Positions 6,120-19,451 of a stretch of DNA of 64,000 nucleotides are shown here, piece by piece. The notes beneath the pieces are model-generated. The model saw nothing but the letters and a program-made list of their open reading frames with translations, was not told the origin of the DNA and did no database searches. The position numbers and the translations under genes were made by a program. The stretch comes from Oligoflexales bacterium (GTDB lineage Bacteria > Bdellovibrionota_B > Oligoflexia > Oligoflexales > RGVZ01): positions 62,001-126,000 of the forward strand of contig CANJZQ010000002.1 of assembly GCA_947479535.1 (NCBI GenBank), in the 5' to 3' direction. Within the stretch, counting starts at the first letter, position 1. Each line of letters begins with the position of its first letter.

Positions 6120-7010
6120 AGCCATTGGCCCGGCAGGCGCAGGTGATGGTGACACCGAAGCTGCAGGAGAGGTTGCCCCAGGCAAAGGAGCCATAGCCGA
6201 TTTTGCCGCTGGCTCAGAGGTGCCAAGCTCTGCTGGTTTCGCATCCGGGTTCTCCGAAAAATTCTCCTTCGGGAGCCCCTTGCAGTCTGCAAATTCCTGA
6301 CGCAATGAAGAATTCATTTCCTTCAACAAGTCATACTCTTTCCCCGACCGAACTCGTCCAAAGTATTCACTGAGCTTTACCGACTTGTCGGCACTCATCG
6401 TTTCAAGGATCAAGGTGACCTGCTTCTGCCGAAGGCGTTTAAACAGTGCCACCACCAAATCCTCGTCCATTTTCTCAATCACGGGCGCAGCCTTTTTTGG
6501 TTCCATCTTGTCATACAGCTCAACCAGCTTGTCGAGGCGTTGACCTTTCAAATCCTTTTCCTGCTGAATGCTCTGGGCAAAGAATTTACGCTCGTCATCC
6601 AGGCGTTTCAATTTATCGTCGATTGATTTTTCCAACCGTTGAAGCTGCCTCTCACGCTTGCCGAGCATGGTAACCCGCTCGTCGATCTGCTTTTTTTTGC
6701 GGTCTGCCATACTCAAGTACCGTGCGACATCTTCCTTCTGAAGTTTTTCGCGATTGAGAGCCGGCAATTCAAGAAGATCATCAAGGAAACTTTTGCGGTT
6801 TCCATCCGGGGTCGCCTTGACCGCATTGTCTGCTGAAGGATCGGTTGCACCCGCAGTTTCTGATTCAGCCGCATGAAGGCCGGCCTCACCAAAACGGAGC
6901 TGCCCGGATTGAATGGCGAGAAACACAAACAACAGGCTCAGTTTGATTCCTGCCACCCATTTGAACCACGCTGGAAATCCACCAACACCATGTTCTGTCT
7001 TACGAATCAT
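6099..7010 (-). CDS. MotE-like flagellar protein (MgtE N-terminal-type domain)
   Basis: The 303-residue protein has a single N-terminal membrane segment (about residues 17-38), a strongly charged coiled coil (about 95-160, with repeated Lys/Glu/Arg-Leu), and then an alpha-helical region containing LYDKMEPKKAAPVIEKMDED, typical of the MgtE_N/MotE group. The last ~50 residues are Pro/Ala/Ser-rich. MotE proteins are exported or membrane-linked partners of the flagellar motor in alphaproteobacteria, and similar genes commonly follow fliJ. The start overlaps the fliJ stop by four bases (ATGA), so it is the last gene of the flagellar operon. Its exact role here is inferred from domain type and position. 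Confidence 0.75.
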   Translation of the reverse strand: MIRKTEHGVGGFPAWFKWVAGIKLSLLFVFLAIQSGQLRFGEAGLHAAESETAGATDPSADNAVKATPDGNRKSFLDDLLELPALNREKLQKEDVARYLSMADRKKKQIDERVTMLGKRERQLQRLEKSIDDKLKRLDDERKFFAQSIQQEKDLKGQRLDKLVELYDKMEPKKAAPVIEKMDEDLVVALFKRLRQKQVTLILETMSADKSVKLSEYFGRVRSGKEYDLLKEMNSSLRQEFADCKGLPKENFSENPDAKPAELGTSEPAAKSAMAPLPGATSPAASVSPSPAPAGPMASPAAAL

Positions 7011-7465
7011 TGATTTACCCTCGATTGCAGGAATCTGCGGAGTGACACCTCGTCGAGACCTTTCTGCTCCTGGCGGGAAAGATCCTTCCTGAACTTAATC
7101 CGATGCCCCTCTTGGAGTTTCTCAACAGCACTCAATTCCCGCTGTACGATGCTCAAGTGCATCATTTGCGACTGCTCTATGCCATCGACTTCTTTGAGTT
7201 TTTGAAAAAGTTTGAAGAGCGTTTCCCGCGCATGATCAACCGCCGCCTCCAACGCCGACAGCATGCCTCTTCCAGCCGACTCGCGCTCAGCATTCAGGCG
7301 CCCAACCCCGTTCAAGTAGCGCTCTTGCCACGCAAATAATTCAGATTCCATCTTCACTTTTTCACGGCGAATCTCGGCTAAAATGATGGCTTCTTCATCG
7401 ACCTTTTTTTGCTTGATTCCGACCACCGGGTCCAAGCGTGAAATCTTTTTCAGATATTTTTGCAT
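7007..7465 (-). CDS. fliJ: Flagellar export chaperone FliJ
   Basis: FliJ is the coiled-coil stalk of the flagellar type III export ATPase and helps recycle export chaperones. The 152-residue product is of normal length and almost wholly helical and charged, with no Pro-rich breaks. It opens with YLKKISRLDPVVGIKQKKVDEE, close to the usual FliJ N-terminus. GGGAG lies just before the ATG. It lies 20 bases downstream of fliI and overlaps the motE-like gene by four bases. FliJ is poorly conserved in sequence, so the call relies on composition, length and position together. Confidence 0.85.
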   Translation of the reverse strand: MQKYLKKISRLDPVVGIKQKKVDEEAIILAEIRREKVKMESELFAWQERYLNGVGRLNAERESAGRGMLSALEAAVDHARETLFKLFQKLKEVDGIEQSQMMHLSIVQRELSAVEKLQEGHRIKFRKDLSRQEQKGLDEVSLRRFLQSRVNQ

Positions 7466-7485: not shown

Positions 7486-8850
7486 CTAAATTCTGCCTGC
7501 AAGGAGTCCGCGCAATCCAACGATGGCTTCATCAAAGGTCGAGCGTTCATCAATGTCTTGTTTCAGGAATCGCTCAATTTGCGGCATCAATTGAATTGCA
7601 AGATCCAGATTCGGATTGGTCCCAGGCTGATAGGTTCCGATCTGAATGTAATCAAAGTTCTCCTCGTATACGCCAAGCAGCGACCGCAACTTGTTTGCAA
7701 TGGTCCAATGTTCCTTGGAAACAATATCAAACATGACCCGGCTGGCACTGGTCACAATGTCAATGGCAGGAAAATGCCCTTTTGCGGCAAGCGAACGGGA
7801 AAGATTGATGTGACCATCAAGAATCGAACGCGCGGCATCAGGGATGGGATCATTGAAGTCGTCGCCATCCACCAATACCGTATAGAGACCGCTAATACTT
7901 CCAGAGCCTTCTGGCATGGGACCACAGCGTTCAAGAAGCCGTGGAAGCAGGGAAAATGTCGAAGGTGGATATCCCTTGGTGGTTGGTGGTTCGCCGACGG
8001 CGAGCCCAATCTCACGCTGGGCCATTGCAACGCGTGTCAGGGAATCCATCATCAGGAGAACGCGCTTGCCTTTCGCTGCAAAATGCTCGGCAATAGAAGT
8101 TGTAAGCCTTGCTCCGCGAAGACGCATCAAGGGCGACTGATCACCCGTCACGACAACCACAACAGAGCGCGCAAGTCCTTCGGCACCGAGATCGCGCTCA
8201 AGAAATTCGCGAACCTCGCGCCCCCGCTCGCCGATCAAACCAATTACATTTATATCGGCAGAAGAACCACGGGCTATCATGCCCATCAGCACCGACTTTC
8301 CAACTCCAGAACCTGCCATGATTCCAATGCGCTGCCCCTCGCCAAACGTCAGCATGCTATCCATGGCGCGCACACCCAGTGTCAACTGCCCATCAATGCG
8401 CTTTCGCATCATCGGGTTGGGGGCGTCACGGTCCAGCGGAACCAAGGCGCTCCCGGCACCGTCGAGTGAGCCCAAAGTTCCAGTCAGCGGCTGCACCATT
8501 GGATCGATCACCCGGCCGATCAAATGATCGCCGACGGTAACCTGGTCGAAGCGGTGGATGCCCGCGACTGAACAACCAGGGGCAATGCCACCCAGGCTGT
8601 TGTATGGCAGGATCAGAGAGCGATCCCCCCGAAAGCCGACCACTTCACCCAGAACCTCGCCCTGATGACCGCCAATTGCGATGGAAACAATGGTGCCTAA
8701 TTGTGAGCCTGGCAGAAATGCCTCGACCACTGTACCAACCACGTCGCAAACCTTGCCACGTGGATCCCAATTTATGTGGGAAAATGAACGGGCCAGATCA
8801 CCACGTGAAAAACGCCTGAGGCTGACAGGAGATTTGGCAGATTCTTCCAC
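7486..8850 (-). CDS. fliI: Flagellum-specific export ATPase FliI
   Basis: FliI is the hexameric ATPase of the flagellar type III secretion apparatus, related to the F1 beta subunit. The 454-residue protein shows Walker A AGSGVGKS (residues 179-186), Walker B VLLMMDS (264-270) and the family segment AVGEPPTTKGYPPS shortly after. It begins at GTG two bases after the fliH stop and is followed 20 bases later by fliJ, matching the usual fliH-fliI-fliJ order. All expected motifs are intact, so it should be functional. Confidence 0.97.
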   Translation of the reverse strand: MEESAKSPVSLRRFSRGDLARSFSHINWDPRGKVCDVVGTVVEAFLPGSQLGTIVSIAIGGHQGEVLGEVVGFRGDRSLILPYNSLGGIAPGCSVAGIHRFDQVTVGDHLIGRVIDPMVQPLTGTLGSLDGAGSALVPLDRDAPNPMMRKRIDGQLTLGVRAMDSMLTFGEGQRIGIMAGSGVGKSVLMGMIARGSSADINVIGLIGERGREVREFLERDLGAEGLARSVVVVVTGDQSPLMRLRGARLTTSIAEHFAAKGKRVLLMMDSLTRVAMAQREIGLAVGEPPTTKGYPPSTFSLLPRLLERCGPMPEGSGSISGLYTVLVDGDDFNDPIPDAARSILDGHINLSRSLAAKGHFPAIDIVTSASRVMFDIVSKEHWTIANKLRSLLGVYEENFDYIQIGTYQPGTNPNLDLAIQLMPQIERFLKQDIDERSTFDEAIVGLRGLLAGRI

Positions 8851-8852
8851 TA

Positions 8853-10043
8853 TCAGCTCGCTTTCTCGTCTTTGGCAAACAAGGTCACATCAGCCTGACT
8901 CAGTAGATTCTTCACCATCTTTTTAGCCTGAACATCGACCACGCTCAATTGCGACTCCAGACGGAATTCCCAGGCAGGAATCTGTGCATCCCTGACAAGA
9001 TGATCATCCAGATCCTTGATGCCTGATTTTGCCATGGCATCGGCCGTCTCGGGATTCAAACGAATCTTGAATTGGTCGCCCTTGACCGTTTCCGATACGG
9101 CCTTGCGCATAATCGAGGCGAAGGAATCCGGACGAATTTCAAACTCGCGCTCGAGCAGGGCCTCGCCCATCGCCTGGCAAAGATCAAAAAAGTTCTGCTG
9201 GACGTTATCCAGAATCTGACCTTTCAACGACTCGAACTCCCGGATCAACTCCCCAGCGCGACCAAAAAACTGACTTGCAGTCTGCCGTGCGCCCAACTCT
9301 CCCTTTTCCTCACCACTGCGAAAGCCTTCCTGATAGCCAGTGTCATAGCCAGACTTGCGTCCCTCAAGAACAGCGGCCTCTTTTGCTTCTGCGACGGCCT
9401 TCTGCATCTCCTGCTCCAGATCCTTACGGACCTTCCAGGCATCGGCTGCTTCAGCCTCAACGGTTGCAGCCGTCTCGCCGGTACCACCGGTCTCCAAAGG
9501 AATGAATGAATCTGAACCGGATTCCTCGCGGTTGATCCGAAAGGATCCGGCCTCCCGCTCAAGGACTGACTCTGTCCCAACGAAGGGTGAAACTGCGGGT
9601 TCTGGTGGCGGGGCGGAAACAACCTCGGCCACGGCAGCAGCTGCGTCACTACCGAAAATCATGGCCAACTCCCGTTGACCCTCATCACTCAACTCCATGG
9701 CATCATCGCCACGACCAATCCTGCGACGGCGGCCAGTCGATGGCGACACAACTTGATTCCACTCTGGGGTGAAATCAACTGGTTTGATGATATTCCTGTC
9801 CCCATCCTGAGATTTCAGCTTCTGGTCAAACTTTGGATGTGCACGGACCGTCTTTTCCAAATCCGCAGCCGTATGAAGACGGGCGTGAATGATGGTTGCA
9901 TCTTCATTGTCAAATGACGCAATTGGAGTCGGGCAGATTTCTTCAAAGGAATAACTACCGATTGAAACATGATTCATCAGGCGGTCGTTGCCTTTGATAA
10001 ACCGCCCGGCACGCTTTTTCCCGTCAGTGTTTAGTGTTGCCAT
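8853..10043 (-). CDS. fliH: Flagellar assembly protein FliH with a long N-terminal extension
   Basis: FliH regulates FliI and tethers it to the export gate and C-ring. The C-terminal ~190 residues fit: a Glu/Ala-rich coiled coil, then repeated GxxxG spacing (GRKSGYDTGYQEGFRSGEEK, about residues 230-250), then the globular C-terminal domain. At 396 residues it is well above the common 230-290. The extra N-terminal ~200 residues are hydrophilic and rich in Ala/Pro/Glu, with no recognised domain. The ATG at 10043 is preferred over a TTG at 10052. The upstream neighbour is fliF, not fliG. Its start lies five bases after the fliF stop. Confidence 0.88.
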   Translation of the reverse strand: MATLNTDGKKRAGRFIKGNDRLMNHVSIGSYSFEEICPTPIASFDNEDATIIHARLHTAADLEKTVRAHPKFDQKLKSQDGDRNIIKPVDFTPEWNQVVSPSTGRRRRIGRGDDAMELSDEGQRELAMIFGSDAAAAVAEVVSAPPPEPAVSPFVGTESVLEREAGSFRINREESGSDSFIPLETGGTGETAATVEAEAADAWKVRKDLEQEMQKAVAEAKEAAVLEGRKSGYDTGYQEGFRSGEEKGELGARQTASQFFGRAGELIREFESLKGQILDNVQQNFFDLCQAMGEALLEREFEIRPDSFASIMRKAVSETVKGDQFKIRLNPETADAMAKSGIKDLDDHLVRDAQIPAWEFRLESQLSVVDVQAKKMVKNLLSQADVTLFAKDEKAS

Positions 10044-10048
10044 TTCGA

Positions 10049-11665
10049 TCAACCTGCCTGGTTCGGACTAAGTATCAACCTGATCGCCTCAACGGTGCGC
10101 TTTGGGTCGTTCTTGGCGATGTATAAGATCTGTTCCTGCTGCGTCATCTTCTCGAACGGAACCTCTTCCTTGACATGAAGCGACTGCACCATGCTCTGCT
10201 CAAGGTCCGGCTTGTATTCTTCGATAAGGGCAGCCTGGTGCTTGCGCTCATTGTCATAGGTGAGCCAGCGGAAGTAGGGACGTACAATAAACGCGAAAAA
10301 CAAGACCAGGGAAAGGGCGGCGGCAATTGAAATCGCAATGGTCGAGAAATACTCACGCCGCTCTTGGGTTTCCATTGAGATGACTTGGCGCTGCGTATTA
10401 TCAAGTTGGAACATCATATTGTGAACTTGAACTTCGTCACGACCATCTTTGAATCCCATGGCCCGTTTGACAAGCTCCTCGATTTTTTTCATTTCTTCAT
10501 CCGAGCGCGGCTCAAACGCAACCTTCGCTCCGTCTCCGAGGCCCTCTTGTTTCCCGTCCACAAGAACGGCGGCCGTCAGGCGACGCAACGTCCCAACGGG
10601 AAGGAGCTTTTTGCTGACCGTTTTTGACACTTCAAAATTGACGAGTTCCGAATCCCGTTTATTCGACGATGAATTTCCAGACGAAGATGGAGTCTCCTGC
10701 TCACCAGGGACATTAGACTTGCTGCCGGGAATACCTGTCGGATTGAGGCCGGTGCCCTGCATGGACTCGCCAGAAGTATTTCGCGAAACCACAGCCGTCT
10801 TGTCCGGGTCGACATCCGAAATTGTTTGCTCTTCCTGGGTAAAATCAACCGTTGCGTCGACTTTCGCGTCAACATGTTCATGTCCAACAATCTTTCCGAC
10901 GATTGACCTGATCTTCTCTTCAAGTTCCTTTTCCACGGTCTGCTTATAGCCAAGCATTTCCTTGGTCATCTTCGAGGCATAGTCCTCGGATTCCACCTTT
11001 GTGAGAAGCCTGCCTTCCTGGTCGATGATGGAAATATTGTTGGGCTTGAGGCCCTCGACTGCCCGGGAGACAAGATGCTGGATTCCGCGGATTTGTTTGT
11101 CATCAATGACAAAGCCACGCTTCGTCTTGATATAGACGGATGCGGTCGGCTCCTTTTGTTCCTGAACAAAAACGGTCTGTTTGGGCAGGACAATATGGAC
11201 ACGGGCGGAATTGATCCCATCAATGGACATGATGGTTCTTGAAAGTTCGCCCTGAATGGCTCTCAGCCGGTTGATCTGCTGCTCAAATTCAGTCCTGGCA
11301 AACTCCTGCTTGTCGAACTTTTCCCAACCGACGACACCGTGCGCAGGAAGTCCTTCCTGTGAAAGCTGAAGGCGCAGCGAGAGAACACGTTCTTTAGGAA
11401 CCTTCACACCTTTTGAATCCACAACAAAGTCGTTGACTCCGTTGCGCTTGAAGTGCTCCACAATAGCCTGCGAGTCTTCGGAACTTAAGTCCACGAAAAC
11501 ATATTCGTAAGGGTCTTCATGCCCAACAACAAGAAGGCCTGCAACCCCCGCAATAATGCATGCAACCACCGCCCCGATGGTGATCTTCCGGGAAAGAGAC
11601 TGCCCACTCCAAAACGCGCTGAGTTGGGCCCAAACTTTTAAAAATGATTCACGAAGGTTGTTCAC
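10049..11665 (-). CDS. fliF: Flagellar MS-ring protein FliF
   Basis: FliF forms the MS-ring in the inner membrane, the base for rotor and export apparatus. The 538-residue protein has an N-terminal transmembrane helix (about residues 27-48), the YscJ/FliF ring-building domains (to about residue 250), a disordered Ser/Asn/Gly-rich loop (about 285-340), a second transmembrane helix (about 440-462) and a cytoplasmic tail. The tail carries NDPKRTVEAIRLIL near the C-terminus, matching the segment that binds FliG in other bacteria. Start is GTG with GGAG six bases upstream. The following gene is fliH; a fliG gene, the usual neighbour, is absent. Confidence 0.97.
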   Translation of the reverse strand: MNNLRESFLKVWAQLSAFWSGQSLSRKITIGAVVACIIAGVAGLLVVGHEDPYEYVFVDLSSEDSQAIVEHFKRNGVNDFVVDSKGVKVPKERVLSLRLQLSQEGLPAHGVVGWEKFDKQEFARTEFEQQINRLRAIQGELSRTIMSIDGINSARVHIVLPKQTVFVQEQKEPTASVYIKTKRGFVIDDKQIRGIQHLVSRAVEGLKPNNISIIDQEGRLLTKVESEDYASKMTKEMLGYKQTVEKELEEKIRSIVGKIVGHEHVDAKVDATVDFTQEEQTISDVDPDKTAVVSRNTSGESMQGTGLNPTGIPGSKSNVPGEQETPSSSGNSSSNKRDSELVNFEVSKTVSKKLLPVGTLRRLTAAVLVDGKQEGLGDGAKVAFEPRSDEEMKKIEELVKRAMGFKDGRDEVQVHNMMFQLDNTQRQVISMETQERREYFSTIAISIAAALSLVLFFAFIVRPYFRWLTYDNERKHQAALIEEYKPDLEQSMVQSLHVKEEVPFEKMTQQEQILYIAKNDPKRTVEAIRLILSPNQAG

Positions 11666-11676
11666 AACTCACTCCC

Positions 11677-12030
11677 TCAGACAGGCATCCGCATGACTTC
11701 CTGGTACGCTTCTAGGGCACGATTCCGAACTTGAACCATCAGATTAAAAGTCAATTCCGCAGTCGACGCAGCAAGCATGGTCTCATGCAGATTTTCTGAC
11801 TTTCCGGTCACCACGCTGGTCGCCATCTTGTCTGCCGTCTTTGCGTTTTCGTTTACTTCAGAGACACGGGCCTGAAGTTGATCGAAAAACGACATTTTCC
11901 CCGTATTGGGCGAACCCTCGGGTTGGACTGGAAGTCCGGCTGCTCCGGTCGAGCTCTCGCGCCGGATCTCATTGAACTTGGCAAAGAGATCTTCGGCGGA
12001 TTTTGCTGAAATGGACATTTGGGAACTCAT
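11677..12030 (-). CDS. fliE: Flagellar hook-basal body protein FliE
   Basis: FliE is the small adaptor between the MS-ring/export gate and the proximal rod. The 117-residue product ends in the typical pattern LAASTAELTFNLMVQVRNRALEAYQEVMRM, shown here in two parts: LAASTAELTFNLM (about residues 86-98) and RALEAYQEVMRMPV at the C-terminus. The N-terminal ~45 residues are variable linker. A strong AAGGAGG precedes the ATG. It lies between flgC and fliF, the standard order. Confidence 0.95.
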   Translation of the reverse strand: MSSQMSISAKSAEDLFAKFNEIRRESSTGAAGLPVQPEGSPNTGKMSFFDQLQARVSEVNENAKTADKMATSVVTGKSENLHETMLAASTAELTFNLMVQVRNRALEAYQEVMRMPV

Positions 12031-12052: not shown

Positions 12053-12490
12053 TCAGCGACCAATCTCAAGAGCCTTCATTGCCATCTGCTTGGTCTCGCT
12101 GAGCGCCGTCGCATTTGCCTCATAGGCCCGCGTTGCGGAGATCATGTTGACCATCTCAGTCATCACTTGAATATTTGGGAGCTCCACGTATCCGTCCGCA
12201 TCAGCATCCGGGTGCGATGGATCCAGCATCCGGCGGGGAGCGCCTTGATCTTGATGGATACCAGAGACTTGGACTTTCGAGAGTTTCGTGTCATGGGTTC
12301 CGTCAAGATAATCCTGAAACTGGTTGCCGGTTGGTTGGGCCGAAAAGATAACATCCCGGCGGCGATAGGCGCCGCCTTCTGGTGTCCGGGTCGTCTGGGC
12401 GTTGGCCAGGTTTGTACTGAGAACGTTCATTCGCAAGCGTTGGGCCGACAGGGCCGAGGAACTGATCGACATTGATTTGAAGGTACTCAT
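12053..12490 (-). CDS. flgC: Flagellar basal-body rod protein FlgC
   Basis: FlgC is a proximal rod subunit. The 145-residue product carries the rod N-terminal motif SISSSALSAQRLRMNVLSTNLANAQT split over residues 8-33 (key part LSTNLANAQT) and the C-terminal motif VNMISATRAYEANATAL (about 118-134) shared by axial flagellar proteins. The ATG at 12490 is preferred to a TTG at 12496 because GGGGGACG lies at the right distance. It follows flgB with a two-base gap. Confidence 0.96.
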   Translation of the reverse strand: MSTFKSMSISSSALSAQRLRMNVLSTNLANAQTTRTPEGGAYRRRDVIFSAQPTGNQFQDYLDGTHDTKLSKVQVSGIHQDQGAPRRMLDPSHPDADADGYVELPNIQVMTEMVNMISATRAYEANATALSETKQMAMKALEIGR

Positions 12491-12492
12491 GA

Positions 12493-12918
12493 TCAACGTC
12501 CCCCGCTAATGGCATAACGAAGCATGCCCAGTTTCCGGTTCAAGGTCTCAACACTCGCGCGGTAAAGGATCTGGTTCTCAGAGAACTGCGCCATTTCTGT
12601 GTCGATATCTACAGTGTTTCCATCATTCGCCACCGATTCACTAGGCCGCACAAAAACATCGGGGCGGACTGAACCATCGGCTTGGGTAAACGCATTGTGC
12701 AAGTGCTTTGAGTTGTTCGTCTTGACTGGCAGGATTTCGCCGCCACCCGACACCTCTTGAAGTTGTTTTTCAAAGTCATACCCAAGGGCGCGGTATCCAG
12801 GAGTCTCTGCATTGGCGATGTTGCTTGTGATCACCTGACTGCGACGCATCCGGTGACTCAAGGCAGACATCTGCACGCGGTCATTAAAATTGAACAAGCT
12901 GTTAACTGCCTGGCTCAA
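12493..12918 (-). CDS. flgB: Flagellar basal-body rod protein FlgB
   Basis: FlgB is a proximal rod subunit that polymerises on FliE. In the 141 residues the motif RSQVITSNIANAETPGYRA (about residues 26-44) is the rod signature, and QFSENQILYRASVETLNRKLGML lies near the C-terminus (key part ILYRASVETLNRKL). The start is a TTG whose last bases overlap the stop of the activator gene (TTGA), with GGAGGG shortly upstream. This coupling puts rod synthesis directly behind the regulator. Confidence 0.95.
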   Translation of the reverse strand: MSQAVNSLFNFNDRVQMSALSHRMRRSQVITSNIANAETPGYRALGYDFEKQLQEVSGGGEILPVKTNNSKHLHNAFTQADGSVRPDVFVRPSESVANDGNTVDIDTEMAQFSENQILYRASVETLNRKLGMLRYAISGGR

Positions 12919-14039
12919 CTCGCCCTCCCCGTCAGCGGCGCGATCACATCGATGCCTTCCGCCGAAAACTCATTAATCTTGTTTCGCAATGTTCTGAGGC
13001 TGATTCCAAGCGTCTTTGCTGCGTGCGTCCGGTTCCCCTGATGGTGCTCCAACGTGCGCAAGATAAACTGTGTTTCCACCTGCTGAAGGGTCCGACCAAC
13101 TGGCAATGCCTCGATCCAGGCCCGATTTTCGCGGTCTTGGCGCCCACCAACGCCCTCGAACCCAAGGTCAGCGGCTTCAAGGACATCAGAGGTGCAGCCC
13201 ACGACCGCACGCTTGATGACATTTTGCAGCTCGCGAACATTGCCCGGCCATGAATAGGCACGGAGGGCCTTCTTTGCGTCATCGGAGATCCGAAGTTGGG
13301 TGCGACCAGCGCTAATGGATTCTTTTTCAGCAAAGTAGAGCGCAAGTGCGTCAATGTCGGATTGACGATGCCGCAGCGCGGGAACCTCGATATGAAGAAC
13401 GTATAGCCGGTAGTAAAGGTCCTGGCGAAATTCACCCTTTGCAACCATCGCCATTGGATCAATGTTGGATGTGGCAATGATTCGTCCATTGAGGGAGACA
13501 TCTGAGTTGCCGCCAAGGCGACGAACCTTTCTCTCTTCAATGACACGCAGCAATTTTGCCTGGTTTCCACCATCGATGTTTGTGACCTCATCCAAGAGAA
13601 GGGTGCCATTGTTGGCACTTTCCAAAAGTCCGATCCGGTCAGCAACCGCGCCAGTGAATGCTCCCTTTTCGAAACCAAAGAGTTCACTCTCAAACATTGC
13701 CGATGGGATTGCAGAGGAGTTCACTGCAACAAACGGACCAGATGAAAACACCGACCGGGCATGAATGTACCGGGCAATTGTTTCCTTGCCGCTACCGGAT
13801 TCGCCGGTGATCAACACCGGCAGGTTTACGGCTGCGATTTGGTCCGCAATTTCCTTGATCCGGCGCATGACTGGATCTGCGACCAGCCAACCGCCATCAC
13901 AGACAACAGGCTCCATAGCGGGGGCAGTTGCCTGTTTGGATTTCGCATATTCAACATAGCCCGCCGGGGTAACCGGCTGAACGGAAACTTTGGATGATTG
14001 GGAAACGAATTGATCTCTGCGAAAGGCCGCGTTGTTCAT
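12915..14039 (-). CDS. Sigma-54-dependent flagellar transcription activator (FlbD/FlgR-like, no receiver domain)
   Basis: This 374-residue AAA+ enhancer-binding protein opens sigma-54 promoter complexes. Walker A GESGSGKE is at residues 79-86, the sigma-54 contact loop GAFTGA at 126-131 and Walker B GTLLLDEV at 145-152. A Fis-type helix-turn-helix (HAAKTLGISLRTLRNKI) lies near the C-terminus. Only ~50 variable residues precede the AAA+ core, so there is no phosphoreceiver domain and activity must be controlled otherwise, for example by partner proteins or amount. It is embedded in the flagellar operon, 52 bases after the TPR gene and overlapping flgB by four bases. Because the operon has a sigma-54 promoter, autoactivation is likely. 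Confidence 0.93.
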   Translation of the reverse strand: MNNAAFRRDQFVSQSSKVSVQPVTPAGYVEYAKSKQATAPAMEPVVCDGGWLVADPVMRRIKEIADQIAAVNLPVLITGESGSGKETIARYIHARSVFSSGPFVAVNSSAIPSAMFESELFGFEKGAFTGAVADRIGLLESANNGTLLLDEVTNIDGGNQAKLLRVIEERKVRRLGGNSDVSLNGRIIATSNIDPMAMVAKGEFRQDLYYRLYVLHIEVPALRHRQSDIDALALYFAEKESISAGRTQLRISDDAKKALRAYSWPGNVRELQNVIKRAVVGCTSDVLEAADLGFEGVGGRQDRENRAWIEALPVGRTLQQVETQFILRTLEHHQGNRTHAAKTLGISLRTLRNKINEFSAEGIDVIAPLTGRAS

Positions 14040-14091: not shown

Positions 14092-16425
14092 CTATTTCTT
14101 CTGAATCTGGGTCAGCCTTTCGGTGGCCAGATTCGCGTAGAACAAATTGTTGCCGTCTGCCTTCGCCTTTTCCAGAGCAGCCACGGCTTCATCTTTTCTG
14201 CCGGCCCGATAGAGAAGAAGTCCTGCTTTGTAGAGGGTTTCAGCACGGCCTTCCCAATTCTCGCTTTCAGCAGCCACCAGTCCGAAGATCCGGCCTGCAT
14301 CGAGGTATTCATTGTCTTTCCTGTATTCCTCGGCCAACTGCAGCAGTTGATCCATCCAGGCCTTGCGCGCCTCTTTATCATCGCCAAATTGGGTCGGCTT
14401 CATGTCACGGAGAAGGCCAAGGGCATCGCGACGCTCCTTGTCCATCCCAAGGACAGCAAACCGCGCAGCGAGATTTGAGATTAATTTTGCGGACGCTGCC
14501 GACGGGGAGAATTCGTTCCTCAGGTCTGCGTTAGATCCACCCGCCGATGTCGACTGCCTGGCTGCATGGTGATCCTTCCAAGATGACAGGATCAGCTTCG
14601 GAGGGGTCCTTAACTTGGCCGCTGAAGTCAGGGATGCCTCAATTGGTTGCCGAAATGCAGCGTAGAGCGCTTCACGTTCCGCAGGCTTCAAGCCGGCAAG
14701 GGTTGCTGCCATGCCGCGATCGGCTTCAACCATGGCCCTTTGAAATGGTGATATTTTGGTTTGCCCGGCCTTCATCCGCACCAAAAGGTCACTGGCCTCT
14801 GATGCCGTCTGGGCCAACCAGAACTGCGATTTGAAACGGTCCGTCCCAGAGCCTTCTTCTGCCGCAGTTTGATAGAACGCGACTGCAGGCTGGGGCTGTC
14901 CGATGTTGCGGTAGGACTCTCCCAGCGCCCATGCAGTTCTAGGATTCTTCCGCACGGACTGAAGGGGTTTTGGCAGAAGCTCGTACGTCTGAACGGCATC
15001 AACATGGCGACCGTCCATTGAAAGCTTTTGAAGGAGTTGGTCGATGCGCGAACGCAGGCGGATCAGCAACTCGCCCCGCATCGGATCAAAGGCCGCCGTC
15101 TTGTAATCACGAAAGTAGTTCGCTGCGAAATTTCCGGCGTCCGTTGTCCATTCACGGCGCGGATCCAGCCTTGCGGCGAGCAGCAAGGATGCCGCAAGAA
15201 ATCTGGTGCGTGGATGGGTTAGGTTAGGGAGCGTCGATTCAAGCTCCCGCGCATCCATTTCATCCAAGGCCGGAATGAGAGTGGCAGACTTGGCATCGTC
15301 GCCTTGAACCGGTGAATTTGACGGCAGGGAACGCCAATAGGCGGTGCGCAAAACCTTGCCCGCCCGATAATCTGGTGTCGTTGATGAAACATCGAGCGCG
15401 ATCAAGGCTGGAGACACCTTGGCAAAAAGATCTGCCTCGCCAGAGGCGATGGCCTCAAGGGCCTGCACGTCTACAAGACGCAGCAAAGCTAATTTATGCT
15501 CAGGTGTTCCTGGAAATCTTTTAGCGATCGCATCGTAGTAGCCACCGGCAAGTGAGGTGTTCCCTTGGCCGAGGTGAATTTCCGCCATCCTCCAAAGGTT
15601 TCCAACATCACGTTCAATGGCGAGAGGGTCGTGAAACAACAATTGCTGATACACGAACATGGCACGCAATTCTTGCCCATCCCCATACAGGGATGTCGCA
15701 AGCTCAGAAAGGCCCTGCGTCGAGGCCATACTGCGCTGGCAGACATCCATCGGAATTTCTGCCGCATATTTTGATTTAGCCGGGAGCGGGTCAAGGCGGT
15801 AAACCGGATCTGCCATTCCACCCCACGACGGCGCGATCCCTGGCTTTGCCTGCTTCAACTGGGAACACAGGTCTGCCGCGCTCTCAAATTTCTTGGGGGC
15901 CGCCTGGAAAATCCTTCGTTGGGGCGCTTGATCTGAAATCGCGTGATTCCCGGAGGATCCGGTTGTTTTCGTCACTTGGGCGACAGGCGCTGCCACAGGG
16001 GTTTGAATTTCATCAGCTGACTTGCCCGGAGTGTATCCGCGCTTGAAAAGCTCAATGACGATTCGAAAGGGTTCATCGAAATCATTGATGGTGGCCACAA
16101 TGTCGCGTGACTTCAATTTAATCAGGACTTCAACGCCATCGGGACCACGGTCTTTCACGAGGAGGCGACGGACCAGCTGCTCATCATAGTGTTCCAGCGC
16201 ATTCAGTTCCGTCGAGGACGTCTTCAGAATCTCGATCTTTACCAGGTTTTCAACGGCATCGTATTTCGCCGTGTAGGGGCGTGACTGGGGAAATGGCAGG
16301 ACAATTTCAGCATAGTCAGCGGCATGCCCTGACCCGCTTGCAAAGGCCAGGCAAATGGCACCAGTCGCAATTGCGACGGATACCGGGATGCTTCTCGATG
16401 TCCATGGCCAATGGAAGGAGAACAT
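14092..16425 (-). CDS. Exported TPR-rich protein, first gene of the flagellar operon
   Basis: The 777-residue product starts with a signal peptide (hydrophobic residues about 13-30, likely cleavage at GSGHA|AD). An AMIN-like beta domain follows (about residues 35-130, including YDEQLVRRLLVKDRGPDG and VRIVIELF-like strands), then a ~90-residue linker. The long C-terminal part is helical with TPR-type repeats, clearest near the end (GRAETLYKAGLLLYRAGRKD). It should be periplasmic. The ATG at 16425 has AGAGG upstream; a GTG at 16437 is possible. As the promoter-proximal gene of the sigma-54 flagellar operon it probably serves flagellar assembly or anchoring in the periplasm, but this is context-based. 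Confidence 0.8.
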   Translation of the reverse strand: MFSFHWPWTSRSIPVSVAIATGAICLAFASGSGHAADYAEIVLPFPQSRPYTAKYDAVENLVKIEILKTSSTELNALEHYDEQLVRRLLVKDRGPDGVEVLIKLKSRDIVATINDFDEPFRIVIELFKRGYTPGKSADEIQTPVAAPVAQVTKTTGSSGNHAISDQAPQRRIFQAAPKKFESAADLCSQLKQAKPGIAPSWGGMADPVYRLDPLPAKSKYAAEIPMDVCQRSMASTQGLSELATSLYGDGQELRAMFVYQQLLFHDPLAIERDVGNLWRMAEIHLGQGNTSLAGGYYDAIAKRFPGTPEHKLALLRLVDVQALEAIASGEADLFAKVSPALIALDVSSTTPDYRAGKVLRTAYWRSLPSNSPVQGDDAKSATLIPALDEMDARELESTLPNLTHPRTRFLAASLLLAARLDPRREWTTDAGNFAANYFRDYKTAAFDPMRGELLIRLRSRIDQLLQKLSMDGRHVDAVQTYELLPKPLQSVRKNPRTAWALGESYRNIGQPQPAVAFYQTAAEEGSGTDRFKSQFWLAQTASEASDLLVRMKAGQTKISPFQRAMVEADRGMAATLAGLKPAEREALYAAFRQPIEASLTSAAKLRTPPKLILSSWKDHHAARQSTSAGGSNADLRNEFSPSAASAKLISNLAARFAVLGMDKERRDALGLLRDMKPTQFGDDKEARKAWMDQLLQLAEEYRKDNEYLDAGRIFGLVAAESENWEGRAETLYKAGLLLYRAGRKDEAVAALEKAKADGNNLFYANLATERLTQIQKK

Positions 16426-16477
16426 GGGACCTCTCACGTGCTGTGCAAATTTGATTTTTTAATTCAGAAGAAGACTG

Positions 16478-16493
16478 AGCAAGGGCCGTGCCA
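16478..16493 (-). promoter_or_regulatory. Sigma-54 promoter of the flagellar operon
   Basis: On the minus strand the sequence reads TGGCACGGCCCTTGCT, an exact match to the sigma-54 consensus TGGCACG-N4-TTGC(A/T). The -24 GG and -12 GC are correctly spaced. Transcription would begin near 16467, leaving a leader of about 40 bases before the ATG at 16425. It is the only such match I found in a spacer of this window, and it stands before the operon that encodes the sigma-54 activator. Confidence 0.92.
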
Positions 16494-16524
16494 ACTTTTA
16501 GGGCGGGTGTAACTACCCTAGAAC

Positions 16525-16603
16525 GAGGCAGATTTTTCATCCGAAAGTTTCTTCCGGACAAAATTCTGCAGGGTCAAAAATGACCCGGGGAAAGTTCTGC
16601 CTC
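16525..16603. promoter_or_regulatory. Candidate enhancer (activator-binding) region with nested inverted repeats
   Basis: A perfect dyad, GGGTCA-AAAA-TGACCC, occupies 16571-16586, about 105-120 bases upstream of the predicted sigma-54 start site, the usual distance for an enhancer-binding protein site. It is nested in a longer inverted repeat, GAGGCAGA (16525-16532) with TCTGCCTC (16596-16603). A 10-bp palindrome TTGACGTCAA at 16632-16641 may be a second site. The likely ligand is the Fis-type helix-turn-helix of the activator encoded in the operon. Alternatively the region could fold as a structured RNA, but I saw no transcript that would include it. Confidence 0.6.
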
Positions 16604-16709
16604 TGCCAAATATCCGCCGCGAACGGTACTTTTGACGTCAACCCCATGACGCATTCGCCAAAGTTCTGGCTGCTATCGCATTCTGGCAAATTTTTTTTTT
16701 TAGAAACCC

Positions 16710-16791: not shown

Positions 16792-17151
16792 ATGTCTCAG
16801 TTGCGCATCAGGTCAAAACGGATGGAGACCCGCAGGTTTCGGGTCTCTGGCCGCGCCGTTGGGCGCCTTGTGTCAATTAGCGGGGACCGGTTGATTTCGG
16901 TCCGTCCCACGGATGTTTCCCGACGTGGACTCGGGTTTATCGCAAAAGAAGCACTCCCTCACGGTGGACAATACTGGCTGGAGATTGACGAAGCCCGCCT
17001 GCGGGTCGAAGTCACCCATTGCCAGTCGCACCTGGGCATCGAAAGCATGTACCAGTGCGGAGTGTTTACCCGCGACCCTGATATCGACCTCGAACAAGTG
17101 TTTGCCCGCTTGGGTTTACTAGAGGAAACCCTTCAAGCAGAAGGTTTTTGA
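16792..17151 (+). CDS. Single-domain PilZ protein
   Basis: PilZ domains bind cyclic di-GMP through an N-terminal RxxxR and a later (D/N)xSxxG. In this 119-residue protein ETRRFRVSGR (about residues 12-21) supplies the arginines and TDVSRRGLG (about 41-49) the second motif, so binding is likely. No other domain is present, as in small YcgR-like or MapZ-type effectors. The ATG at 16792 has AAAGGG five bases upstream; a TTG at 16759 has no ribosome-binding site. The gene has a sigma-28-like promoter and faces away from the flagellar operon, so a role in adjusting motility to c-di-GMP is plausible. Its last 19 bases overlap the convergent kinase gene. Confidence 0.85.
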   Translation: MSQLRIRSKRMETRRFRVSGRAVGRLVSISGDRLISVRPTDVSRRGLGFIAKEALPHGGQYWLEIDEARLRVEVTHCQSHLGIESMYQCGVFTRDPDIDLEQVFARLGLLEETLQAEGF

Positions 17152-19451
17152 ATCGCAGCCATCACCCGGGCAACAGACGGGGTGCCTTTTCGGATGATTG
17201 GAAATCCGGCGTCATTGGTTTCAAGCCTGCCAATATCCCAATCACTGCAAATAATGATGTCCTGAACCCCGGCTTCACGGGCCTTTCGTGCCAGCGTCAT
17301 TCCGTCCATCGCACCACCTTCGAAATGATAATCAACCACAAGGATCGGCGCGCGGGACAAAATCATGTCTTCTGGGGCAAGCCTTGCAAGCAGATCGTCG
17401 GGATTTGCAAAAACAATCACGTCTGCATCGGTGGACTCGCGCTCCCACATGTCACGAACAAAGGGACTGTCATCAACGACAACAATCAATCTGCGGGCGG
17501 CTCTGCTTTTTAACGAGCCTTCAAAACGGCTGGCATGCAAAACCACGGCAAGGTCAGGCAACCCACGATCCGCCGGAATCGATACTTCCATTTCAAGGAT
17601 CGATCTTTCTGGATCGTACTGATGGCGAACCATTCCACCCATTGATTCAGCCAGACGCCTGATGATGACCAGACCAAGTCCGCGATTGCGTCCGTTTGGA
17701 CCAAAGGCCCCAAGACTATTTCTGACCCTGGTATTTCCGAGGACAATAAAGTTTTCTTCTGAAAAGTCCGTCACCTTGTTGCCGATTGTGATCAAGCAAG
17801 CAGGGACGGTCCCATCGCCTTGCTGCATTGCAACCTCACGGGTGGCGATGGTGATGATCGAGTCGCGTGGGGCTGAACACGCCGCATTGTCCAACAGGTT
17901 GTCCACGATCCGGCGCATTGCAATCGGATCACCAGACATTCGTGAGTGATGCGTCCAAGACGTTTTGAAACTCAAACCCCGGCCATCAAACGATGGCAGC
18001 AGTCGCGAAAGGGATGCTTCCGTCAGGTCGACGATTGAAAAACTTTGTGAGGTCACGTTGGATTTTCCGTCAAACGATTCTTCAAGCGCTGCCAACTCCA
18101 CTAAAAATCCATCCAAGTACGCTGTGCTGTCTGGATCCTGAAATTTCACCGCACGACGAAGGTCGTGGACCACCATCCTTGCCTGAAGAGCCATTGCAGA
18201 TTTCGCAAGGTGGGTGGCCGAGAGGTCAATCGCCATTTTTTTCATCCGGCCATCGCGCTGACTGGACCTGCGAATGGTTTCAAACACGACAGGGATTACC
18301 GATGAGATCAAAAGCGACATCACAGGGGGAGTCAGAGATTCTGGCAGAACAGGCGCAAAAACTAGCAGCCCAAATGTCCAGATTAGGCCAAGCACCATGG
18401 CCGAAGCCAGGCCCGGCGCCATCGAAAGGCACAAAGCGATTGTGGCCGCGATTGCCAGCGTGAGGATTGACCACACGGACACCGGGGTCGGCATGGTCCC
18501 ATTGATGGCGGAATTTGCGATTGCAGAGATTTGCGCCACTGACCCTGAATCGGATGATCCTATGATCACCAGTTCCGGAGGCTTGCTTGAATGGTTGGCG
18601 CTTAGGAGCGTCTCAAGGGGTTCTGCTTGCAGAGGCAATAGAGGCAGCAAAACAAAACCACCATCGGATTGAACCTGCCGGTTTCCGATTTCAATCTTGC
18701 CCCTGCGGATTGACACCCCCCAGGGGAAATCCCGCGGCGCGAGTGCAAGGTTCGCCACCAACCGGTCTTCCCGCCACCTGGCAACCGGGAGAAAGGAATT
18801 TCTGTCCATGCCAATCGAGTCGATCAGGCCAACCCCGGCAATGACATCGGCAAACTCGACTGCCGGACCGGCCAAAACCTGAACTGAAATATCAGGTATT
18901 TTTCGAAGGTCCTGAAGGGACGTCAATTCTGGAGATGAGTTGCCAGGTTTGCTGTTGCGGATGGAGTCCTGAACAAACTTCTCTACCGGCATCCCGAACA
19001 GCATTGGATCAGCCGGTGATACACCCGGCCGGGGGTTCACCATGCGCAACGGCGCATAGACTTCGATGCCTTTTGCCGCTGCATCGCGGAAGCCTTGAAG
19101 GTAGCCCGGTTGAGCTGCGTTTACGCCTGAAAAAACCTCTTCTTCTGGAATCAGAATTCGTTTCGCGCCAAGGTCGCCCAAACTTTTAAAAATCGCCTGC
19201 CAATCTTCTGCCCCAGGGGATAGCCTGCCCGTGCGCATCCGCCATGATTCATCCCAAACAAAAACACGCAGCTTTGGGTTAAATTGGTTGAGGCGTCCGA
19301 CGTTGTCCGGTTTGTCCCATAGTTTTCCAGCGATGTCATAACTGCCTGGGCTGACCCAAGACATGGCAATCCAGGACGCCCAGCCCCACGCCAGGACAGT
19401 TGCCGCCAGCGAGGCCATGGAAAACCTGTTGGTCCAAAAATGGTGCTTCAC
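17133..19451 (-). CDS. CHASE2-domain hybrid histidine kinase
   Basis: The 772-residue protein has a first transmembrane helix (about residues 13-33), a CHASE2-type extracytoplasmic sensor (about 35-320), further hydrophobic helices (about 326-392), a phosphotransfer helix with His429 in VVHDLRRA, an ATPase domain with N-box NLLDNA (518-523) and G-box GRNRGLGL (587-594), and a C-terminal receiver domain with Asp660/661, phosphoacceptor Asp707 and Lys755. No DNA-binding output is attached, so signalling must pass to a separate phosphotransfer or response protein. GTG start preceded by AAGGCGG. It stands alone, its end overlapping that of the PilZ gene. The ligand is unknown. Confidence 0.88.
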   Translation of the reverse strand: MKHHFWTNRFSMASLAATVLAWGWASWIAMSWVSPGSYDIAGKLWDKPDNVGRLNQFNPKLRVFVWDESWRMRTGRLSPGAEDWQAIFKSLGDLGAKRILIPEEEVFSGVNAAQPGYLQGFRDAAAKGIEVYAPLRMVNPRPGVSPADPMLFGMPVEKFVQDSIRNSKPGNSSPELTSLQDLRKIPDISVQVLAGPAVEFADVIAGVGLIDSIGMDRNSFLPVARWREDRLVANLALAPRDFPWGVSIRRGKIEIGNRQVQSDGGFVLLPLLPLQAEPLETLLSANHSSKPPELVIIGSSDSGSVAQISAIANSAINGTMPTPVSVWSILTLAIAATIALCLSMAPGLASAMVLGLIWTFGLLVFAPVLPESLTPPVMSLLISSVIPVVFETIRRSSQRDGRMKKMAIDLSATHLAKSAMALQARMVVHDLRRAVKFQDPDSTAYLDGFLVELAALEESFDGKSNVTSQSFSIVDLTEASLSRLLPSFDGRGLSFKTSWTHHSRMSGDPIAMRRIVDNLLDNAACSAPRDSIITIATREVAMQQGDGTVPACLITIGNKVTDFSEENFIVLGNTRVRNSLGAFGPNGRNRGLGLVIIRRLAESMGGMVRHQYDPERSILEMEVSIPADRGLPDLAVVLHASRFEGSLKSRAARRLIVVVDDSPFVRDMWERESTDADVIVFANPDDLLARLAPEDMILSRAPILVVDYHFEGGAMDGMTLARKAREAGVQDIIICSDWDIGRLETNDAGFPIIRKGTPSVARVMAAIQKPSA

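Follow-up and report, generated by a model that had tools for sequence, protein, structure and literature searches.

What switches on a flagellar operon whose second gene encodes a sigma-54 activator devoid of a receiver domain? We addressed this question at a locus of an Oligoflexales bacterium (GCA_947479535.1, contig CANJZQ010000002.1), within a stretch of 64,000 nucleotides that we refer to as the window. Oligoflexales belongs to Bdellovibrionota, a phylum that includes predators, and our literature search on its class and flagellar sigma-54 regulation returned nothing on the operator and regulon described here. An earlier note, written from the sequence alone, had proposed that a sigma-54 promoter drives the operon and that the receiver-less activator encoded by its second gene binds a GGGTCA-N4-TGACCC dyad upstream. 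The promoter and the gene assignment hold up, but the dyad does not stand as the activator's site.

The operon and its sigma-54 promoter

The operon runs on the minus strand from 16425 to about 6100 and encodes, in this order, an exported TPR protein (14092–16425, with a probable signal peptide and an ATG at 16425 after GAGAGG), the sigma-54 activator (12915–14039), FlgB (12493–12918), FlgC (12053–12496), FliE (11677–12030), FliF (10049–11665), FliH (8853–10052), FliI (7486–8850), FliJ (7007–7465) and an MgtE_N-like protein. As the earlier note had it, the window holds a single sigma-54 activator gene, the second of the operon (14039–12915, after 16425–14092); the genome encodes six clear ones, five of them outside the window. 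Two relatives, at 94% and 86%, are metagenome-assembled genomes labelled Pseudobacteriovorax, order Oligoflexales. The succession of TPR protein, activator, FlgB and FlgC is kept in nearly all order-level loci that we fetched, an exception being L106 (genome G028), where an activator homologue with 41% identity lacks adjoining FlgB and FlgC genes; no FliM match was found in that genome. The TPR protein evolves fast, with about 30% identity across the order, and a search for a solved relative returned none; it is reminiscent of PflA and similar TPR proteins of the periplasm that serve the motor.

Upstream of the operon, the −24/−12 box TGGCACGGCCCTTGCT (16493–16478, minus strand) matches the sigma-54 consensus at 12 of 12 positions, exactly as previously claimed, and is the sole perfect match to TGGCACGN4TTGCW in the window. 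It predicts a transcription start near 16467, and 14 of its 16 columns are invariant in an alignment of four congeners. Across the 30 Oligoflexales genomes (14 genera) for which DNA upstream of the operon was to hand, every orthologous promoter carries a sigma-54 box with a score of at least 14, in all 30 loci directly 5′ of the TPR gene, a degree of conservation for which chance cannot account. The genome has one copy of rpoN and ten perfect sigma-54 boxes, of which only the one in the window was seen 5′ of a flagellar gene. Judged by this conservation, the promoter before the flagellar operon is a genuine sigma-54 promoter, conserved order-wide.

The promoter is flanked by a divergent PilZ-like gene (16792–17151, plus strand), which has a weak PilZ match (E value of 0.004) with visible RxxxR and DxSxxG motifs, is kept in the genus and, in some further genera, is found close to the operon; its product is a possible c-di-GMP sensor. 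At the PilZ-like gene ends another gene (17133–19451, minus strand), whose large product has the ATPase domain of histidine kinases (Pfam HATPase_c) and, by eye, a receiver-like C terminus.

A conserved array of N6 operators

For an unbiased view of possible activator sites, we scored all inverted 4-mers with spacers of 0–12 in the 260 bp preceding each of the 30 boxes, weighting hits by genus and using dinucleotide shuffles as background. GTCA-N6-TGAC was found in 13 of the 14 genera, compared to an expectation of 0.05, and GCCA-N6-TGGC in a genus-weighted 6.5 of 14. Taken as one class, G[CT]CA-N6-TG[AG]C occurs in all 14 genera, as a rule in two or more copies per promoter, and reaches 26.7 genus-weighted sites versus 0.12 in the shuffles. 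Whereas the N6 spacer yields these 26.7 sites, N4 yields 0.5, and every other spacer stays near background.

In the window, the array begins with operator A (GCCAGAACTTTGGC, 16657–16670, minus strand), a member of this class whose 14 positions are all invariant in the genus, followed 20 bp on by operator B (GTCATGGGGTTGAC, 16637–16650, minus strand), the most conserved site and the one found as GTCA-N6-TGAC in 13 of the 14 genera. An imperfect operator C (GGCGGATATTTGGC, 16605–16618, minus strand; 12 of 14 positions invariant in the genus) lies 32 bp past B. Many other genera have a similar spacing from A to B (20–24 or 29–31 bp), and most have an imperfect site ending in TTTGGC about 24–34 bp after B. 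Closer to the promoter lie two genus-level repeats 31 bp apart, D (GGCAGAACTTTCCC, 16588–16601; 11 of 14 invariant) and E (TGCAGAATTTTGTC, 16557–16570; 12 of 14 invariant), both on the minus strand, D also matching GGCA-N5-TGCC at seven of eight positions. We also rejected a reading of the TTGAC within site B as a −35 hexamer, since no −10 was visible by eye and a sigma-70 scan gave chance-level sites only.

The dyad singled out in the earlier note, GGGTCAAAAATGACCC, is indeed present at 16571–16586, about −104 to −119 from the start near 16467, where it lies in the poorly conserved linker that separates repeats D and E. Its perfect symmetry and its enhancer-like distance speak for an activator bound at this very site, yet we regard that reading as very improbable. 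In the genus alignment only 6 of its 16 columns are invariant, against 8.6 on average for the region, and the dyad is lost in two of three congeners (L076 and L077); beyond the genus, N4 spacing stays at background in the 14 genera. A genome search for further copies beside other sigma-54 promoters was negative, the exact dyad occurring once in 2.4 Mb, and the N4 class is absent from the fliL promoters described below. By a rough estimate, a perfect dyad with 6-bp arms is expected about 0.5 times in a 200-bp stretch with 11 possible spacers, so that finding such a dyad carries little weight by itself; its occurrence in the linker is probably accidental. Conservation establishes array, box and operon alike, and the conserved operator is the G[CT]CA-N6-TG[AG]C array rather than the N4 dyad.

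A second promoter and the candidate binders

A genome search for N6 sites turned up another sigma-54 promoter that carries them, 5′ of fliL-fliM. Fetching its orthologues via FliM gave 12 promoters with a usable box from six genera, and G[CT]CA-N6-TG[AG]C sites are present in all six; several other order-level fliL promoters showed no convincing box or site. The mixed dyads GCCA-N6-TGAC and GTCA-N6-TGGC also occur at fliL-fliM promoters, which shows that both half-sites interchange and that the sites share one specificity. As a control, we took 12 class-level genomes that lack the receiver-less activator; upstream of fliM, the dyad was absent from them and no sigma-54 box exceeded a score of 12.5. 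For Oligoflexales flagella, these data provide an operator that can be put to the test and part of a regulon, comprising the flgB and fliL operons. The 2.4-Mb genome (G000) further encodes at least six flagellin-like proteins, plus FlgL-like ones (L164–L171).

Which protein would bind the array? The activator encoded in the operon consists of an AAA+ domain with a GAFTGA motif, a lid and an FlbD-type helix-turn-helix of the Fis type, and its best named model, Caulobacter FlbD, is matched from model position 120 only. As previously stated, it has no receiver, and neither it nor its orthologues across the order have even a degenerate one at the N terminus. These orthologues are 41–94% identical; in 21 of them the N-terminal ~50 residues are unconserved, with the AAA+ domain and the DNA-binding helix nearly invariant. 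The helix, GNRTHAAKTLGISLRTLRNKINEF, is nearly identical to that of alphaproteobacterial FlbD, and a search for the FliX partner was negative in the genomes of all 28 relatives, with Caulobacter as a positive control. Among class-level relatives, the closest matches to the activator are 37–42% identical and mostly 470-residue frames.

Self-activation through the array, with the activator binding G[CT]CA-N6-TG[AG]C at its own promoter and at fliL-fliM in a positive feedback, would fit several of these observations: the activator is conserved along with the operon throughout the order, the DNA-binding helix is nearly invariant, as are the array sites, dyads of this kind are bound by Fis-type helix-turn-helix proteins, and sites at fliL are lacking in the class-level relatives, whose activator matches are distant ones only. 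However, the helix barely differs from that of FlbD proteins, and their known site, GGCA-N5-TGCC, was not found here, and a self-activating loop that depends on sigma-54 only would need a starter. We therefore do not favour autoregulation by the operon's activator and consider it possible but rather unlikely. Still more doubtful is its stronger form, in which receiver-less FlbD proteins make up an order-wide lineage that, although its recognition helix has hardly changed, recognizes G[CT]CA-N6-TG[AG]C in place of GGCA-N5-TGCC and activates the sigma-54 promoter of its own operon; were it true, flagellation would be a self-sustaining all-or-none state.

The sites themselves point elsewhere. The FlbD site is CCCGGCA-N5-TGCCGGG in Caulobacter, and a FlbD from Desulfovibrio recognizes a dyad much like it (PMC3333781); perfect GGCA-N5-TGCC has no copy in the 42 promoter sequences that we scanned. 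FleQ binds GTCAAT-N2-ATTGAC, that is, GTCA-N6-TGAC (PMC10723142), and the GTCA-N6-TGAC dyads at the operon promoter match this consensus. The genome carries a FleQ-like activator gene on contig C29, cut at its N terminus by the contig end, whose best solved match is FleQ, helix-turn-helix included; it adjoins rpsB-tsf-pyrH-frr (neighbourhood as read here), not flagellar genes. Because the sites fit the FleQ and not the FlbD consensus, and such a gene lies elsewhere in the genome, this FleQ-like protein is the most likely binder of the array.

FlbD-type sites do occur elsewhere. Azospirillum has paired GGCA-N5-TGCC sites 5′ of fliF, and alphaproteobacterial plasmids carry FlbD genes together with such pairs before fliF, with no strong sigma-54 promoter there; in Qipengyuania, the stretch examined held no annotated FlbD. 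Two perfect copies, 23 bp apart, lie before a C8 flagellin (L223, 4708–4743) and one before flgE (L218, 12062), in both cases with no sigma-54 box nearby, which weighs against reading them as sites of a second regulatory tier.

Both proteins might also share the array, the FleQ-like activator starting the operon and the FlbD-like product later reinforcing or repressing it, for instance via the degenerate repeats D and E. In its favour, the genus has conserved both repeats, and in Caulobacter early genes, fliF among them, are repressed by FlbD through ftr sites (PMC3930126), but D and E are degenerate and genus-specific, and we hold this arrangement to be improbable.

A candidate two-tier cascade and its relatives

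On balance we lean towards a two-tier cascade, in which the FleQ-like protein switches on the operon and the operon makes the FlbD-like activator; as part of this joint reading, the promoter at 16478–16493 would, with marginally better than even confidence, be the class-II flagellar promoter of Oligoflexales. The sigma-54 form of RNA polymerase would wait at this box until a sigma-54 activator, bearing a Fis-type helix-turn-helix, occupies A, B and probably C (16605–16670), about 110–180 bp upstream of it, and loops to open the promoter. The operon would then make the receiver-less activator alongside rod, MS-ring and export proteins. As the activator is receiver-less order-wide, its supply is its probable control: it would be made only when the operon promoter fires, be governed by synthesis and not by phosphorylation, and act on later flagellar genes, as what we infer to be the next tier. 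On this view, its synthesis would be what switches the activator on, a simple solution for a protein devoid of a receiver.

This arrangement partly resembles Caulobacter FlbD, with which the activator shares an AAA+ domain with GAFTGA and a near-identical DNA-binding helix, and whose activity is not set by phosphorylation (PMC3096577). It differs in that the activator here is without any receiver, with no FliX in the 28 relatives, and in that the promoter is of the sigma-54 type, not CtrA-dependent, and without GGCA-N5-TGCC. The FlbD homologue DVU1063 of Desulfovibrio vulgaris is likewise a flagellar sigma-54 regulator, with an atypical receiver (PMC3333781), but it retains that receiver and binds GGCA/TGCC dyads. 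As in the cascades from FleQ to FleR in Pseudomonas and from FlrA to FlrC in Vibrio, the early promoters are of the sigma-54 type and carry GTCA-N6-TGAC sites, and the early tier would make a second sigma-54 activator (PMC3930126, PMC10723142); unlike in those cascades, the second activator here is receiver-less and FlbD-like, has no kinase gene in its operon and is encoded within the rod/MS-ring operon itself.
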